A stretch of DNA of 64,000 nucleotides. It comes from Marinomonas sp. UCMA 3892 (lineage in GTDB: Bacteria; Pseudomonadota; Gammaproteobacteria; Pseudomonadales; Marinomonadaceae). The stretch spans positions 1,283 to 65,282 of the forward strand of contig NZ_PTXN01000014.1 of NCBI RefSeq assembly GCF_012726345.1, written 5' to 3'. The position numbers and the translations under genes are program-made. Below the pieces are notes generated by a model, which worked only from the letters and a program-made list of their open reading frames with translations, did no database searches and was not told the DNA's origin. This document shows positions 10,906 through 17,236 of the stretch, one piece after another; position 1 is the first letter of the stretch, and each line of letters starts with the position of its first letter.

Positions 10906-10923
10906 AATATTGTCCGTACTTGA

Positions 10924-10954
10924 TTGACTTGCAATGCTATGTATTGCAAGTCAA
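10924..10954. repeat. 12-base perfect inverted repeat upstream of the GNAT gene
   Basis: TTGACTTGCAAT and ATTGCAAGTCAA flank a seven-base loop, 19 bases upstream of the GNAT start. No T-run follows on either strand. It may be an operator or an mRNA leader hairpin. Confidence 0.5.
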
Positions 10955-11050
10955 TTGTTTGTTTCGAAATCTAAGCTAAGCAGATAGTGTGCAGGAGTGT
11001 AACGTGAGGGTATACAAAAACCAATAATGAGAACCGATTACAACAATCGA

Positions 11051-12196
11051 TTAGACTTTCAATACCACCGTGGCTTGAAGACGGCTCTGTCCAAAGCGCG
11101 ACATTTTTTCAAACTCATCACGGGCAATAGGCACGTATTGGCAATCCAATGGACTTGGCGGATCGTCAGGTAATTTTTTATCGTCGTCTAAGTCTGGATC
11201 ATGCACAAGAATGCAATGCTCGTCGTAGCCAGACATCACCACCCAATGAGGTGACTTTTTCCCGTCCATACGAAAAGTGCTGATCAAGATAATCGCTAAA
11301 GCGCCATCATCAAACGCTTCGATCAATTGCGCCAATGGCATCGCACTATAATGTAAAGGCACACCAACGTCTTCGCATTGTTGAGCAAAGCTTTCATGAA
11401 CCCGAGTGATCACGTTTTTCTTCAGTTCATTACGCACGCTGTCGACAAATAACGGACCTTCTTCGCTCAACCAAACATCCGCTGACAAGCCACGCTTCTT
11501 CGCCGCCAAAGCCAACCCCATAGGGTGACAACCGCCATGACCAGAGGTCATAAAAATCGTCGTCGCTTCACGCCAAATTTCTAACTCATCGTTAGGCGTC
11601 GCTTGATAATCAGGATGCATAGAAGACAACACCATTTGCAACGACGCAGGGCCGCACGTAAATGGCGTGCCTTGTGCTAACCAAGGAATCGCGCGAGTGG
11701 TTTGTTCATCACCCGCATGACGTAAACGTTTTTGCATACGAATCGCATCGGTTTGGTCTTCGTAATAGGCATCATAATGACCAAATTCCTTGTAACCCAT
11801 TTTTTGATACAAGGCTATGGCATTATGGTTCACATCACTGACTTCCAAACGCAGCAGCATCTTGCCTTTTTTCAACGCCTTTTTCTCACAGGCTTGGATC
11901 AATAATTTTCCAATACCAAGGCCACGTGCTTCAGGCGATACTGCAAGCGAATATAACCGTGCTAAATGAGTACCTTGGCGAAGGTGCAGCAAGGCATAGC
12001 CAAGTAGCCCTCCCTCCTGCATTGCGACAAATAGCGCTGAACCAGAACTGGTAATCGCATGACGAAAACTACGACGACTTAACCGATCGCCAGTAAAGGC
12101 TTTGCCCTCCAAAACGAGCAATGCTTTTAAATCGTCTATACTCGCTAAACGAACATCAATATTTGGGGGAGAACTGGTGACCGAGCTTGTGATCAT
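11051..12196 (-). CDS. GNAT acetyltransferase fused to a C39-like cysteine peptidase domain
   Basis: The 381-residue protein has two parts. Residues about 12-160 form a RimI-like GNAT with the acetyl-CoA loop VSPEARGLGIGKLL. From about 170 there is a papain-fold, C39-like domain with Cys181 in TPFTCGPAS, His317 in KSPHWVVMSG and Asp333 in VHDPD, a plausible triad. I chose ATG 12196 (AGAGG eight bases upstream); a TTG at 12217 is the only earlier start. The gene diverges from an RLAN/RimK-type ATP-grasp ligase across a 323-base region. Acetylation, peptide cleavage and ligation thus sit together, which suggests a peptide or metabolite made or matured by this pair. The substrate is unknown. Confidence 0.85.
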   Translation of the reverse strand: MITSSVTSSPPNIDVRLASIDDLKALLVLEGKAFTGDRLSRRSFRHAITSSGSALFVAMQEGGLLGYALLHLRQGTHLARLYSLAVSPEARGLGIGKLLIQACEKKALKKGKMLLRLEVSDVNHNAIALYQKMGYKEFGHYDAYYEDQTDAIRMQKRLRHAGDEQTTRAIPWLAQGTPFTCGPASLQMVLSSMHPDYQATPNDELEIWREATTIFMTSGHGGCHPMGLALAAKKRGLSADVWLSEEGPLFVDSVRNELKKNVITRVHESFAQQCEDVGVPLHYSAMPLAQLIEAFDDGALAIILISTFRMDGKKSPHWVVMSGYDEHCILVHDPDLDDDKKLPDDPPSPLDCQYVPIARDEFEKMSRFGQSRLQATVVLKV

Positions 12197-12519
12197 TACA
12201 TCGCCTCTAAAGGGCAAAAGGTCGCTAGGATCGTCGAACCGTAATCTTTATTAATCACTATAAAAGGGAGTAAAAAAGCCACGATTTTACGATGAAAATT
12301 TTCGCGCATTCTAGAGCGAAACCTGTCTAAAAGATAGCAAAAGATAGTCTATTTTTTCATCAAAAAAACATTTTATTTTTTCATTTTAGACTATTGTTAA
12401 AACAATAAATAAAGCGCACCATCCGCACAAATTGAGGGTGTTTTTTACCCCCCATTTTTGATACAACTTTTAAACACTCAAAATGATTTTTCATTTAAGC
12501 AAAAGGAAAAGCATACCCA
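12197..12519. other. Divergent promoter region of the GNAT-C39 and RimK-type genes
   Basis: This very AT-rich stretch contains an 8-base inverted repeat, ATAGTCTA at 12344-12351 and TAGACTAT at 12387-12394. A TTGTT/AACAA dyad follows directly. Both promoters must lie here. I saw no convincing small precursor-peptide gene. Confidence 0.45.
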
Positions 12520-13998
12520 ATGTCACAGACTTACATAGTTGTTGATCAGGCCAAAGATTGGTCAGCGTTTTTACCTAGTGATCGAGTGATCACTTTTACT
12601 CAATACTTAAACTTGGCCGCGACAAAAAGCCAAGGGCGCACACGAATCATCAACCTATGTAAAAGCAGCAAATATCTGTCCGACGGTTATTACTGCTCGC
12701 TTTTGGCTGAAAGCCGTGGTCATCACGTTATGCCTTCCGTGCGCGTACTTAACGACCTAAGCAAGAAAGATCTATATGAGTTAGAGATATCTCAGTGGTT
12801 ACCATTGCTTGCAAAAAAACTCGCTAAACCAGAAGCACCGATGGAAATGAAATTCCACTGTGTATTCGGTAAAACGATTCATCCAGAAATGAAGGAATTT
12901 GCACGAAAATTATTCGAAAGCTTTCCTAGCCCTGTATTGGAAGTGACTTTGAAATTCCGCAAAGAATGGCAAGTCACCGCCCTCTTCTCTACATCACAAA
13001 GTAAACTGAACGACGCAGAAGAAACCCTATTCGCCGAATCCTTAGAAGCTTTTAGCAACAAAGTATGGAGCAAAGGCCGCATTCAACGTGCTGCAAAATT
13101 CGACATGGCAATTTTGCTTAACCCAGAAGAAGCTATGCCGCCAAGTGATGACCAAGCGATTAAAAAGTTTATCCAAGCAGGTAAGCAACTTGGTATACAC
13201 GTTGATACGATTGGTCCAAAAGACATTATGCGTCTGCCGGAATACGATGGCTTGTTTATTCGCGAAACAACCAACATTGACCACCATACCTACCGCTTTG
13301 CCAAAAAGGCAGAAGGGTTAGGCTTGGTCGTTATGGACGACCCACAATCTATCATGCGTTGTACCAACAAAGTGTACTTAGCGGACTTGTTTAACACTCA
13401 CAAAGTGCCGTGTCCTAAAACACGTATCGTACACAAGGGTGAAAGTAACGTGGAAGACGCTTTAGAAGCGGTGATCAGCTACCCAATGGTGGTAAAAATT
13501 CCAGACGGCGCGTTTTCTAAAGGCGTGATAAAGGCTGAAAACCGTGAAGCTCTGACCGAAAGTTTGAACACCTTATTTAAAAAATCGTCTTTGCTATTGG
13601 TACAAGAATACCTATACACAGAATTCGATTGGCGTATCGGTGTACTGAACAACAAACCCATCTTTGCTTGTCGCTACTACATGGTGAAAAACCACTGGCA
13701 GATTTACCAACATACAGGTAGCAAAAGCCAAAGTGGAGGATTTGATACCTTACCAACTTTCGAAGTGCCACGACGCGTGCTACAAGCCGCCATCGCGGCC
13801 ACCAAACCGATTGGTGAAGGCCTATACGGCGTAGACGTAAAAGAAATCAATGGTCGTGGTTACGTTATCGAAGTAAACGACAACCCAAGTATCGACCGCG
13901 GCGTGGAAGACAAATACCTAGGCGATGAACTTTACATGCACATCATGTCAGAGTTCTTGCGTCGCATGCAGGTGAAACGAGGTGATCATCAAGCCTAA
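12520..13998 (+). CDS. RimK-type ATP-grasp ligase with N-terminal RLAN domain
   Basis: The 492-residue protein is longer than ribosomal RimK (about 300). Residues 1-150 match the RimK-like ATP-grasp N-terminal (RLAN) type, and about 190-480 form the ATP-grasp. Visible motifs include MRCTNKVYLADLF, the PMVVKIPDGAFSKGV lysine strand, LLVQEYLYTEFDWRIGV, and the metal-binding VIEVNDNPSI at 453-458. Such enzymes join an amine to a carboxyl through an acyl phosphate. The divergent partner is a GNAT fused to a C39-like peptidase. Ribosomal S6 glutamylation seems less likely than a dedicated metabolite or peptide role. A terminator follows. Confidence 0.88.
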   Translation: MSQTYIVVDQAKDWSAFLPSDRVITFTQYLNLAATKSQGRTRIINLCKSSKYLSDGYYCSLLAESRGHHVMPSVRVLNDLSKKDLYELEISQWLPLLAKKLAKPEAPMEMKFHCVFGKTIHPEMKEFARKLFESFPSPVLEVTLKFRKEWQVTALFSTSQSKLNDAEETLFAESLEAFSNKVWSKGRIQRAAKFDMAILLNPEEAMPPSDDQAIKKFIQAGKQLGIHVDTIGPKDIMRLPEYDGLFIRETTNIDHHTYRFAKKAEGLGLVVMDDPQSIMRCTNKVYLADLFNTHKVPCPKTRIVHKGESNVEDALEAVISYPMVVKIPDGAFSKGVIKAENREALTESLNTLFKKSSLLLVQEYLYTEFDWRIGVLNNKPIFACRYYMVKNHWQIYQHTGSKSQSGGFDTLPTFEVPRRVLQAAIAATKPIGEGLYGVDVKEINGRGYVIEVNDNPSIDRGVEDKYLGDELYMHIMSEFLRRMQVKRGDHQA

Positions 13999-14042: not shown

Positions 14043-14076
14043 AAAAGGCGACTAATTAGTCGCCTTTTCTGTTTTT
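14043..14076 (+). terminator. Terminator after the RimK-type gene
   Basis: AAAAGGCGACTAA and its exact complement form a 13-base palindromic hairpin ending in T-rich sequence. The remaining bases to 14300 show an AGGAGGAGG stretch near 14260 but no RNA motif that I recognise. Confidence 0.85.
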
Positions 14077-14300: not shown

Positions 14301-15440
14301 ATGACTAACTCTACAAAAATCGATTTTATTTACCTTTCTGAACAAGACATGATCAAAGCTGGCGTAACCAATATGGCGGGCTGTGTTGATACCATGGAAG
14401 AGATGTTTCAACTTCTCTACAAAGGTGATTATCGCATGGCAGGTCCAAATAGCGACTCTCACGGTGCAATGATTACATTCCCTGAAGAGCCTGAATTCGA
14501 AACCATGCCAAAACACTCACCTGATCGTCGTTTAATGGCAATGCCTGCTTATCTAGGCGGCAATTTTCAAACTTGTGGTGTGAAATGGTATGGATCGAAT
14601 ATTGCCAACCGTGAAAAAGGCTTACCTCGCTCTATCTTAATGTTTACCTTGAACGATGCGGATACAGGCGCACCATTGGCACATATGTCAGCAAACTTAT
14701 TGTCTGCTTACCGTACTGGCGCTGTACCAGGCGTTGGTGCTCGCCATTTGGCTCGTAAAGATTCTAAAGTCATCGGTTTGCTTGGCCCAGGTGTAATGGG
14801 CAAAACATCCGTCGCGGCTTTTATGGCGGTATGTCCAAAACTAGACACGATCAAAATTAAAGGTCGTAGCCAAAAAAGCCTTGATAACTTCATCACTTGG
14901 TTAAAAGACACCTACCCACAAATCTCTAATATCCATGTTGTCGATACTCTTGAAGATGTGGTTCGGGGTGCAGATATCGTTACCTACTGTAACTCCGGTG
15001 AGACTGGTGATGTTTCCGCCTACCCTGAAGTTAAACGTGAATGGGTTAAACCTGGCGCGTACCTTTCAATGCCTGCTTACTGCCGACTAGATGAAGCAAT
15101 GGAAAAAACGGACGTCAGAAAAGTCGTTGATAACCCAGGCTTGTACGAAGCTTGGTTTGAGGAAGTTCCTAAACCAGCACATAAATATATCCCTGTAATC
15201 GGTGTGCGCTTCATGGACATGATCGCAGCAGGCGAAATGTCCGAAGACGAGCTTGAAGACCTTGGCAAAATTACCGCAGGTGATGCACCTGGCCGTACAA
15301 ACGAAGAAGAAATAATCATTCTTTCTGTAGGTGGCCTTCCTGTTGAAGACGTGGCTTGGGGTACACAAATTTATCGTAACGCCTTAGCAAACAACATTGG
15401 TGTGAAGCTAAATCTTTGGGAAACACCAGAATTATACTAA
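14301..15440 (+). CDS. Ornithine cyclodeaminase/mu-crystallin family protein (tyramine-oxidase subunit B-like)
   Basis: The 379-residue protein has the mu-crystallin fold: a Rossmann motif GLLGPGVMGKTSVAAF near residues 160-175 and the upstream SANLLSAYRTGAVPGVGARH block that lines the NAD site. Family members are NAD(P)-dependent imine reductases or cyclodeaminases. This long branch is, as I recall, sometimes labelled tyramine oxidase subunit B. It heads a run of RidA, FAD oxidase and amino-acid permease genes, so it probably processes an imine formed during amine oxidation. The substrate is not settled. The ATG follows GGGGC weakly. Confidence 0.78.
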   Translation: MTNSTKIDFIYLSEQDMIKAGVTNMAGCVDTMEEMFQLLYKGDYRMAGPNSDSHGAMITFPEEPEFETMPKHSPDRRLMAMPAYLGGNFQTCGVKWYGSNIANREKGLPRSILMFTLNDADTGAPLAHMSANLLSAYRTGAVPGVGARHLARKDSKVIGLLGPGVMGKTSVAAFMAVCPKLDTIKIKGRSQKSLDNFITWLKDTYPQISNIHVVDTLEDVVRGADIVTYCNSGETGDVSAYPEVKREWVKPGAYLSMPAYCRLDEAMEKTDVRKVVDNPGLYEAWFEEVPKPAHKYIPVIGVRFMDMIAAGEMSEDELEDLGKITAGDAPGRTNEEEIIILSVGGLPVEDVAWGTQIYRNALANNIGVKLNLWETPELY

Positions 15441-15499
15441 TTCTAAAGTGTCGCCTAATACTAGGTGGCACTTAGTTCAAACATAGTTGAGAGACAAAA

Positions 15500-15922
15500 A
15501 TGACAAGTTTAAAAAAAGTAAAAACCGGCTCTAAATTCGAAGAAATTGGCAGTTACTCCCGTGTTGTTGCGGTTGATAATTGGATCTATGTTTCCAACAC
15601 CGCAGGTCGCAGCCCTGAAACAAAAGAAATTCCTGAAGACATCATTGAACAGACAGCACAAGTATTTAAAAACATAGAAGCGGCTTTAGCCTCTGTTGAT
15701 TCTTGCCTAGGCGATGTGGTGATGTCTCGAGTTTTCATTCAAAACCCAGAAGACACCCATGCTGTAATGACCTATATAGGTTCCAAATTTAAAGGGATTG
15801 ATCCTGCTACAACCGTTACTTGTCCACCTTTAGGTTCAAATGTTTATAAAGTAGAAATCGAAGTAACAGCTTATCGCAATGCATCAACAATGGATGTTGA
15901 GCAGATAACCATCTCTCAATAG
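15500..15922 (+). CDS. RidA-family enamine/imine deaminase
   Basis: The 140-residue protein has the YjgF/RidA fold: an early SYSRVVAVDNWIYVSNTAGR strand pair, the central helix with VFKNIEAALAS, and the C-terminal LGSNVYKVEIEVTAYR strand. RidA proteins hydrolyse reactive enamines and imines to ketones and ammonia. Its place between the OCD-like gene and an FAD amine oxidase fits clearing imines made by that oxidase. The classical substrate-binding Arg position is not obvious, so it may belong to a non-RidA1 subgroup. A GAGAGA site precedes the start. Confidence 0.85.
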   Translation: MTSLKKVKTGSKFEEIGSYSRVVAVDNWIYVSNTAGRSPETKEIPEDIIEQTAQVFKNIEAALASVDSCLGDVVMSRVFIQNPEDTHAVMTYIGSKFKGIDPATTVTCPPLGSNVYKVEIEVTAYRNASTMDVEQITISQ

Positions 15923-15943
15923 CTTGATTACGGGAATTGCGAT

Positions 15944-17236
15944 ATGACAATTACTCTCGAAAAATTCGATACGCCAAACGATCTTCCTGCCTCAACAACC
16001 GTTGTCATCATCGGTGGTGGGATTGTTGGCGTCACAGCAGCATTGACCTTAGCTGAACGAAATGTCCCAGTCGTTCTAATAGAGAAAGGACATATTGCAG
16101 GCGAGCAATCTTCTAGAAATTTGGGTTGGATACGCAAAACCAGCCGTCATTTTGAAGATGTCCCTATGGCAATGGCGGCGGATAAATTATGGCAAGACAT
16201 GCCCAATCGAGTTGGCCATGACTTAGGCTATAAACAAGAAGGCATACTCTTTCTAGCCAGCTCTGATGAACAAATGAGTATGCATGAAAATTGGCTTAAA
16301 TCCGTCAAATCCCTAGATCTTGACTCTAGAATGCTAACGCCGAAAGAAATTGACGATAAGGTACCTGGCGGAAAAGGCAACTGGAAAGGTGGTATTTACA
16401 CACCGTCTGATGGTCGTGCAGAGCCATCAATTGCTGCTTCTACCATTGCCAAAGCCGCCATCGCTAAAGGCGCTATTATTGTCCAAGATTGCGCGGTTCG
16501 AATGCTCTCTACTTCGGGAGGCAAAGTCAGCGGAGTTGTCACTGAAAAAGGTGAAATTCGTTGCGAACAAGTACTGCTTGCGAGCGGCGCTTGGTCAAGA
16601 CGCTTTTTAGGAAACCACGGTATAACACTACCTACTCTTCCTTTAATTTGTTCTGTAATGCGTACCAAGCCAATGGAAGGACCAACGGATATTGCGGTTG
16701 GCGGCCCTGACTTTTCATTCAGAAAACATAAAGATGGCGGCTTCATTGTGACCCAACGTGGCGCCTTAGATGCACCAATTACCCTTGATCATCTCACCAT
16801 CGGTTGGCGCTATTTATCACAGCTACGTGCTCAACGAAGCTTTTTACGCATTTCATTCGGAAGCCATTTCTTTAAAGACCTTGCCATGAAACGAAAATGG
16901 CACGCTGAAAGTAAAACGCCTTTCGAAGATATCAGAACGTTAAACCCTAAACACAACCCGAGTTTAAACAACGAAGCGATGACCAACCTACGGAATGCAT
17001 GGCCAGTTTTCAATCAAGCAGAACAGGAAGAAGCATGGGCGGGTGTCATTGACATTACTCCTGACTCAAATCCTGTGATTGATCGTGTCGCCGACCTTCC
17101 TGGACTGACTATAGCCACCGGCTTTTCAGGCCATGGTTTTGGTACAGGCCCAGCAGCAGGACAGTTAGCCGCGGATATTGTTTTGAATTCAAGCCCCCTT
17201 ATCGATCCACGACCATACCGGTTCGATCGTCTTTAA
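15944..17236 (+). CDS. FAD-dependent amine/amino-acid oxidoreductase (DAO family)
   Basis: The 430-residue protein begins its FAD domain with VVIIGGGIVGVTAALTLAER (GGGIVG at 24-29) and ends with the ATGFSGHGFGTGPAAGQLAADIV block shared by D-amino-acid-oxidase-like enzymes. There is no signal peptide, so it acts in the cytoplasm. It likely oxidises a primary or secondary amine or amino acid to an imine with FAD. The next step could be RidA hydrolysis and then the aldehyde dehydrogenase of this cluster. It starts 22 bases after ridA. Confidence 0.85.
   Translation: MTITLEKFDTPNDLPASTTVVIIGGGIVGVTAALTLAERNVPVVLIEKGHIAGEQSSRNLGWIRKTSRHFEDVPMAMAADKLWQDMPNRVGHDLGYKQEGILFLASSDEQMSMHENWLKSVKSLDLDSRMLTPKEIDDKVPGGKGNWKGGIYTPSDGRAEPSIAASTIAKAAIAKGAIIVQDCAVRMLSTSGGKVSGVVTEKGEIRCEQVLLASGAWSRRFLGNHGITLPTLPLICSVMRTKPMEGPTDIAVGGPDFSFRKHKDGGFIVTQRGALDAPITLDHLTIGWRYLSQLRAQRSFLRISFGSHFFKDLAMKRKWHAESKTPFEDIRTLNPKHNPSLNNEAMTNLRNAWPVFNQAEQEEAWAGVIDITPDSNPVIDRVADLPGLTIATGFSGHGFGTGPAAGQLAADIVLNSSPLIDPRPYRFDRL

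Follow-up and report, generated by a model that had tools for sequence, protein, structure and literature searches.

Acetyl transfer and amide ligation are predicted for two divergent genes in a stretch of 64,000 nucleotides from Marinomonas sp. UCMA 3892 (contig NZ_PTXN01000014.1, positions 1,283 to 65,282), hereafter the window. One gene encodes a GNAT acetyltransferase fused to a papain-like domain of the DUF3335 family, which resembles peptidase C39, and the other encodes a RimK-type ATP-grasp ligase carrying an N-terminal RLAN domain. A survey of related loci supports the view that the two genes form one module, the core of which is the acetyltransferase and the ligase, with the peptidase domain being dispensable. 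RLAN and DUF3335 as Pfam families, as well as DUF3335-GNAT fusions, are already known, and what is new here is the redefinition of the core. In the open-licence literature, no paper or experiment on the pair of RLAN ligase and GNAT-DUF3335 protein, and no product or phenotype, was found. The genes lie about 0.3 kb apart as follows, and residue numbers of the fusion refer to the 381-residue form, as in a preliminary description of this locus made from the sequence alone.

11051..12196, minus strand: GNAT-DUF3335 (C39-like) fusion, 381 amino acids from an in-frame ATG at 12196
11051-12217, minus strand: longer open reading frame of the same GNAT-DUF3335 gene, 388 amino acids from a TTG at 12217
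12520..13998, plus strand: RLAN and RimK-type ATP-grasp ligase, 492 amino acids

Co-occurrence and adjacency of the two genes

Among 48 Marinomonas genomes, RLAN and DUF3335 are carried by the identical 38 and by none of the remaining 10, and in 38 of 38 they are divergent neighbours, with gaps of 742-1051 bp between the matched domains. In two of these 38 genomes the DUF3335 match is damaged or misread, by an internal TAA in G031 and by a split over two matches in G018. Across 398 genomes sampled evenly over the phylum, RLAN is present in 72 genomes (75 places) and DUF3335 in 58 (61 places); 57 genomes have both, 15 only RLAN and a single one only DUF3335 (Fisher p 1e-53, genomes taken as independent). 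Counted by genus, 30 of the 31 genera with DUF3335 also have RLAN (p 9e-27, on the same assumption of independence). Of 14 well-known genomes used as controls, none, E. coli included, has RLAN, and a single one, that of Methanosarcina acetivorans, has DUF3335. The association of the two families is far beyond chance.

Moreover, DUF3335 lies within 10 kb at 55 of the 75 RLAN places, the other 20 being without it. The gene orders at these 55 places are of four sorts, namely same strand with C39 upstream (28), divergent (19), same strand with C39 downstream (5) and convergent (3), from which it follows that adjacency has been kept or remade through rearrangement, a pattern not easily explained by shared ancestry alone. 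The GNAT-C39 gene likewise adjoins the ligase in locus L195. Since many bacteria carry the two genes next to each other, it is very likely that both enzymes act on one shared peptide. The preliminary description had regarded the two genes as one module, and the neighbourhoods bear this out, random association being excluded by the presence of RLAN in 57 of the 58 DUF3335 genomes.

The acetyltransferase and the ligase as the core

Gene content was inspected at 56 of the 75 RLAN places (55 neighbourhoods and the window; the other 19 all have DUF3335 within 10 kb), with GNAT and C39 states called by hidden Markov models built from proteins of these loci. A GNAT-C39 fusion is present at 36 loci, a lone GNAT of the same kind at 19, and neither at one, L069, in the genome of which a GNAT-C39 gene sits on another contig (L070). 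The GNAT reading frame is at most 1.4 kb from that of the ligase in 55 of the 56, and at most 0.3 kb except in L044. All GNATs of the inspected loci score above 100 bits by one of two GNAT profiles, compared with 32-51 bits for the GNAT part of the enzyme of N-acetylglutaminylglutamine (NAGGN) synthesis, and both kinds of GNAT occur together in L056. Wherever C39 is near RLAN in the inspected loci, its domain is on the GNAT polypeptide. In addition, single open frames of about 660 amino acids in L095 (9065-11065) and L100 (9401-11380) join GNAT, RLAN and RimK in one protein, with a GNAT-C39 gene beside it.

RLAN ligases are common, as at least 584 confirmed stretches exist in a species collection, and the best 80 of these constitute a second set, the named loci. 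GNAT-C39 occurs in 44, a lone GNAT in 28 and no GNAT in 8, the GNAT being at most 1.7 kb from the ligase in 72 of the 80. The eight without a GNAT comprise L114, L117, L139 and L157, which are near the upstream contig end, L116, which stops shortly after the ligase, and L168, L172 and L182, which have full flanks. Since 19 of the 56 and 28 of the 80 loci have a GNAT of the same kind without the peptidase domain, peptide cleavage cannot be a step that every module needs. The earlier proposal that acetylation, peptide cleavage and amide ligation are united in this locus is supported by conserved active-site residues for all three activities, and is corrected as regards the peptidase. Replacement of C39, where it is missing, by a retropepsin of the RimB type was also considered and rejected, the recurring gene being the lone GNAT.

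The history of the two kinds of locus was approached with fasttree phylogenies of 136 ligase rows and 132 GNAT rows, both obtained with a long-branch warning, and with approximately unbiased (AU) tests on 45 rows picked to span both kinds. On the ligase tree, the state switches between GNAT-C39 and lone GNAT nine times or more, with rows lacking a GNAT state and four contig-edge loci omitted, and a single clade of lone-GNAT ligases is rejected (p-AU 1.4e-6 in the 45-row subset). On the GNAT tree, which omits L092, L093 and L094, the two kinds are mostly apart, with three changes in 130 rows; in the 45-row subset there are four changes, and the one-clade hypothesis has a p-AU of 0.059. It is therefore not clear that lone GNATs are fusions that just lost C39, given three to four changes on the GNAT tree versus nine on the ligase tree. 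Because the GNAT tree separates the kinds while the ligase tree mixes them, it is as likely that ligases swapped one GNAT for another, or that one of two ancestral GNATs was lost, as that C39 was lost from the fusion; the RimI-like GNAT usually stays.

An RLAN ligase is also found on the Pseudomonas aeruginosa plasmid pZYPA1927 (L194, 7911-9500), in a seemingly chromosomal stretch with ggt, a glutamate ATP-binding cassette (ABC) transporter and pagP, and no GNAT of this kind is present within 8 kb in this locus. The ligase is behind pagP and a reductase gene, an order that we take to be PA1343-PA1345. Envelope-stress control was considered through a CpxR site of PA1345, predicted by motif and absent in DNA affinity purification sequencing (DAP-seq) in the section concerned of PMC12802237; it was judged weak and not used.

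The GNAT-DUF3335 protein

The domains and presumed catalytic residues of the fusion are as follows.

11711..12163, minus strand: GNAT domain of RimI/Ard1 type, residues 12-162
11057..11689, minus strand: DUF3335 papain-like (C39-like) domain (PF11814), residues 170-380
11654..11656, minus strand: codon of Cys181, the presumed nucleophile, invariant in 29/29 and 45/45 sequences
11246..11248, minus strand: codon of His317, invariant in 29/29 and 45/45
11198..11200, minus strand: codon of Asp333, D in 25 and E in 4 of 29, D in 45/45

The protein matches DUF3335 (PF11814; E 7.9e-83, 277.4 bits versus a cut-off of 25), Acetyltransf_1 (E 7.6e-19) and Peptidase_C39_2 (E 3.8e-08), and with its Gln/Cys/His/Asp set it is a member of DUF3335, a papain-like domain described by Pfam as ‘Peptidase_C39 like family’. 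GNAT fusions are frequent among DUF3335 members according to PMC10318531, which cites Iyer et al. 2009 in its sentence on such fusions. Residue conservation was assessed in two alignments, A2 with 29 sequences and a second set with 45, the window sequence belonging to both. The fusion with Cys181, His317 and Asp333, as earlier described, holds well, Cys and His being invariant and position 333 being D or E; loss of this set in close relatives, which had been named as evidence against the proposed module, did not occur in either alignment. Gln175, likely the oxyanion residue, is invariant in both (29/29, 45/45). Of the GNAT residues, E118 and N123 do not vary in either set, and Y130, invariant in the 45, is kept in 27 of the 29 and replaced by F in the other 2; these residues fall at what are presumably the positions of RimI E103, N108 and Y115.

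Structure comparisons were made with whole AlphaFold models, so that the ATP-grasp and GNAT parts filled the rows, with the best 50 Foldseek rows for each protein. The model of the fusion has a mean predicted local distance difference test (pLDDT) score of 90.7, and its GNAT fold is closest to RimI 2cnm (Z 22.9, root-mean-square deviation (rmsd) 2.0, 147 aligned), tied with Ard1 (Z 22.7), in agreement with the sequence profile, which matches N-alpha-acetyltransferases. The score for the S18 acetyltransferase RimI (TIGR01575) is 75.8 of the 86.4 bits required. Among the best 60 of 148 solved chains matched by the fusion profile, none covers DUF3335. Leader peptidase C39, for which PMC10318531 gives the accession PF03412, is absent from the fusion matches down to E 0.001, and no exporter domain is on the polypeptide. 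Judged by these domain matches, ‘C39’ is a fold label only; as the domain is DUF3335 and PF03412 is not matched, the name gives no reason to expect processing of a ribosomally made precursor.

DUF3335 proteins away from RLAN are present in L092 (9926-10630), L093 (5133-6194 and 14189-15397) and L094 (9974-11191). One of them, of 235 amino acids, is without a partner domain, and the N-terminal part of the others has no Pfam GNAT match. They apparently form a separate branch of the family.

The RLAN-RimK ligase

The preliminary description of a divergent, 492-residue ATP-grasp ligase with an extra N-terminal domain proves accurate, the two parts being RLAN and RimK.

12598..13038, plus strand: RLAN domain (PF14401), residues 27-173
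13099..13974, plus strand: RimK-like pre-grasp and ATP-grasp domains, residues 194-485

The protein belongs to both families, with scores of 158.1 bits for RLAN (E 1.6e-46, cut-off 25) and 44.6 bits for RimK (E 1.6e-11, cut-off 21), and is 98% identical to the ligase of Marinomonas rhodophyticola. In an alignment of 33 ligases (A1), N45, G56, Y57, Y58 and S60 of RLAN, as well as K284, K326, R372, D439, E451 and N453 of ATP-grasp, are invariant in 33 of 33. The invariant residues of RLAN suggest that this domain may bind a ligand rather than serve as a mere spacer, and the active-site residues of the fusion and the ligase look intact. The AlphaFold model has a mean pLDDT of 86.8; its ATP-grasp part resembles RimK 7qys (Z 28.2, rmsd 2.5, 275 aligned), and chains of RimK, LysX and ArgX, which the sequence profile also resembles, occupy the top nine rows. 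The score for the S6-glutamate ligase RimK (NCBIfam TIGR00768) is 77.9 of the required 143.4 bits. The ligase profile matches 29 solved chains, and in none does the best stretch cover RLAN. The RLAN domain was reportedly named by Iyer et al. 2009, who are said to have predicted modules of amidoligases, acetyltransferases and peptidases.

Genes beyond the core

Besides the ligase, GNAT-C39 and lone GNAT, no family recurs in more than 8 of 61 loci in which reading frames of at least 70 amino acids were clustered, a threshold at which a short or unlinked precursor is possible. The same 61 loci contain no fitting recurring frame of at least 70 amino acids for a precursor of the graspetide type, shorter frames being outside the clustering. 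To this extent the earlier observation that no precursor gene is visible extends from the window to these 61 loci.

Of 141 loci, 21 have DUF2817, which we take to be a family of M14-like metallopeptidases, at a distance of at most 5 kb, and in 11 DUF155 is equally near; all of these loci hold C39 except L117, the contig of which ends 0.8 kb upstream of the ligase. Either as a fixed third partner was rejected, and neither belongs to the core, because DUF2817 has no match in the Marinomonas sp. UCMA 3892 genome and is present in genomes without RLAN. Neither is seen beside the pair in the window. In L083 (1749-12762), the NAGGN trio (TIGR03104, TIGR03103 and TIGR03106, all over cut-off) is followed on one strand by a 249-residue protein, GNAT-C39, DUF2817 and DUF155.

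A capped peptide conjugate as the proposed product

It is our tentative view, held with somewhat less than even confidence, that the GNAT-ligase module makes an N-capped peptide conjugate, most likely a small molecule, and that C39 is a dispensable hydrolase by which the conjugate is trimmed or recycled. This reading draws on the co-occurrence and adjacency of the two genes, the near-constant GNAT beside the ligase with or without C39, the GNAT-ligase fusions of L095 and L100, the repeated state changes on the ligase tree, the likeness of the parts to RimI/Ard1 and to RimK/LysX/ArgX, the published pair of RimK and RimB, the nearness of DUF2817 in some loci, and L083, in which GNAT-C39 comes directly after a complete NAGGN trio. 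In RimK-type ATP-grasp ligases, a carboxylate is activated as acyl phosphate and an amino acid is added. Similarly, the RLAN-RimK protein would, at the cost of ATP, couple an amino acid to a carboxylate borne by a peptide or amino acid, and the RimI-like GNAT, which would need a peptide-like substrate, would acetylate this molecule at its free alpha-amine. Such a product, with a cap at one terminus and an extension at the opposite one, would follow the logic of NAGGN. The fusion enzyme probably cuts peptides besides capping, and its C39-like domain may act on the conjugate as RimB does for RimK; trimming or recycling is the best reading of the hydrolase because it comes and goes with the GNAT. 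We infer that both enzymes are active, that the steps occur in the order given, with acetylation at the alpha-amine, that C39 hydrolyses rather than transfers acyl groups, and that the product is small rather than a protein tail.

Several findings weigh against this reading. The closest structural relatives act on proteins, RimI on S18, RimK on S6 and LysX and ArgX on a carrier protein, and papain-like domains can be acyltransferases or transpeptidases. Ligases without a nearby GNAT exist, as in L069, L116, L168, L172, L182 and the P. aeruginosa plasmid copy L194. Moreover, the link with NAGGN is from one genome, since the two systems lie near each other in G053 alone of the nine genomes that have both, and the presence of Ngg, the NAGGN enzyme of TIGR03103, is uncorrelated with that of RLAN (p 0.26). 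Unlike that of the pair, the Ngg ATP-grasp belongs to the cyanophycin-synthetase type and its likeness to RimK is weak.

The protein relatives are the starting point of another explanation, which has a substantial, if minor, share of the probability. Here, the ligase would add amino acids to a cell protein at its C-terminus, the GNAT would cap an N-terminus of that target and C39 would remove the tail, a reversible editing akin to housekeeping control by RimK, RimI and RimB. This is supported by the fact that the enzymes closest to both domains have ribosomal or carrier proteins as targets, by the lack of any constantly linked substrate gene and by RimB, a protease that removes the glutamates added by RimK, as reported in the relevant part of PMC11957791. 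However, the NCBIfam cut-offs for RimI and RimK are not reached, and the genome of Marinomonas sp. UCMA 3892 has a separate, strong RimK-domain match (226 bits) and a single match to the RimB-type Zn_protease (PF05618), so that a classic RimK system is probably already present. The latter match is on contig C10 and the window is on C33, and the pair does not qualify as a writer and eraser of the RimK-RimB type. A metabolite is preferred to a protein tail on the grounds of the GNAT-ligase fusion, the patchy distribution in the genus (38/48), these separate matches and the lack of a constant third gene.

In an improbable alternative, the papain-like domain, as an acyltransferase or transpeptidase, would itself form the product, and the GNAT would modify a side group. 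DUF3335 is, according to PMC10318531, closely related to Guanylate_cyc_2 and is treated there in the same section as the acyltransferase BtrH and phytochelatin synthase, and the constant location of C39 on the GNAT polypeptide in the inspected loci would also fit, but the many modules that keep ligase and GNAT without C39 make a needed synthetic step unlikely. A detoxification or resistance pair, in which the GNAT inactivates an amine toxin, the ligase or the peptidase acts on related compounds and proximity reflects shared regulation only, is very improbable, since the weak profile likeness of the GNAT to aminoglycoside and streptothricin acetyltransferases is far below the cut-offs and its best structure rows are N-terminal acetyltransferases.

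If the capped conjugate is real, enzymes of the ribosome-modification type would be linked to small-molecule conjugation. The acetyltransferase and ligase core points to the two genes to examine first, for which the expected mass shift would be an acetyl group (+42) plus an amino-acid residue. A broader proposal, that a RimI-like and RimK-like enzyme pair makes a widespread, so far undescribed class of N-acetylated peptide conjugates serving as osmolytes, stores or signals, in which RLAN holds the acceptor and the peptidase is an ‘eraser’ repeatedly gained and lost by different lineages, is less likely than not.

Control region and flanking genes

12197..12519, no strand: shared divergent control region
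14043..14068, plus strand: terminator-like hairpin behind the ligase gene, from a pattern scan

An AGAGG-like site is seen by eye ahead of the ATG at 12196. Within the control region, two blocks, CGCGCATTCTAG (12303-12314) and TTTTAGACTATTGTTAAAA (12384-12402), are seemingly conserved among Marinomonas relatives, as judged by look in an alignment of 16 sequences, several of which are partial and poorly aligned. Between 10880 and 14320, ten terminator-like sites are found versus a mean of 4.3 in shuffles, and the promoter scan gave two sites, below the shuffle mean of 6.4. The window contains no tRNA and no Rfam match at gathering score.

A 17-pair inverted repeat, terminator-like on the plus strand, is located at 10921-10957, between a neighbouring GNAT gene and the GNAT-C39 gene. 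On the other side, at 14301-17236, genes for a tyramine oxidase subunit B-like protein (NF004848, 720.9 bits), a Rid-family protein and a DAO-type oxidoreductase lie in a row and are perhaps an amine-utilisation cluster adjoining the pair. Given the terminator-like hairpin at 14043-14068, the tyramine-oxidase-B-like gene is probably in a separate unit.

Comparison with known systems

The NAGGN system (AsnO, Ngg and an M42 peptidase; TIGR03104, TIGR03103 and TIGR03106; PA3459-PA3461) is similar to the pair in uniting a GNAT, an ATP-grasp ligase and a peptidase in one locus, and Ngg, like the fused proteins of L095 and L100, has its GNAT N-terminal to ATP-grasp. As described in the corresponding section of PMC8070244, Ngg acetylates one glutamine and joins a second, and the dipeptide is formed without a ribosomal precursor. 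In contrast to NAGGN, no amidotransferase is beside the pair, and the pair's peptidase is papain-like rather than of the M42 family. In the test for Ngg (TIGR03103), the GNAT part scores 30.2 of 569 bits and the ligase has no match down to E 0.001; in the Marinomonas sp. UCMA 3892 genome, no Ngg match was obtained at E 1e-30 (3 of 22 candidates scored). The idea that the module replaces NAGGN was set aside, there being no significant correlation in either direction.

RimK-RimB is a published ligase-protease pair, in which, according to the part of PMC11957791 concerned with it, RimB strips the glutamates added by RimK. Together with RimI, it resembles the present pair in the ATP-grasp fold (Z 28.2 to RimK), the GNAT fold (Z 22.9 to RimI) and the combination of ligase and protease. 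It differs in that the pair's ligase has the extra RLAN domain and its protease is papain-like, whereas RimB is a retropepsin. Finally, the rlo operon of Pseudomonas aeruginosa, as outlined in the pertinent passages of PMC12239564, encodes the retropepsin RloA, the inactive transglutaminase RloB and the ATP-grasp protein RloC. Unlike the pair, it involves a secreted aspartic protease and a membrane protein, with no GNAT named in those passages; like the pair, it combines an ATP-grasp protein compared with RimK there and a protease partner.

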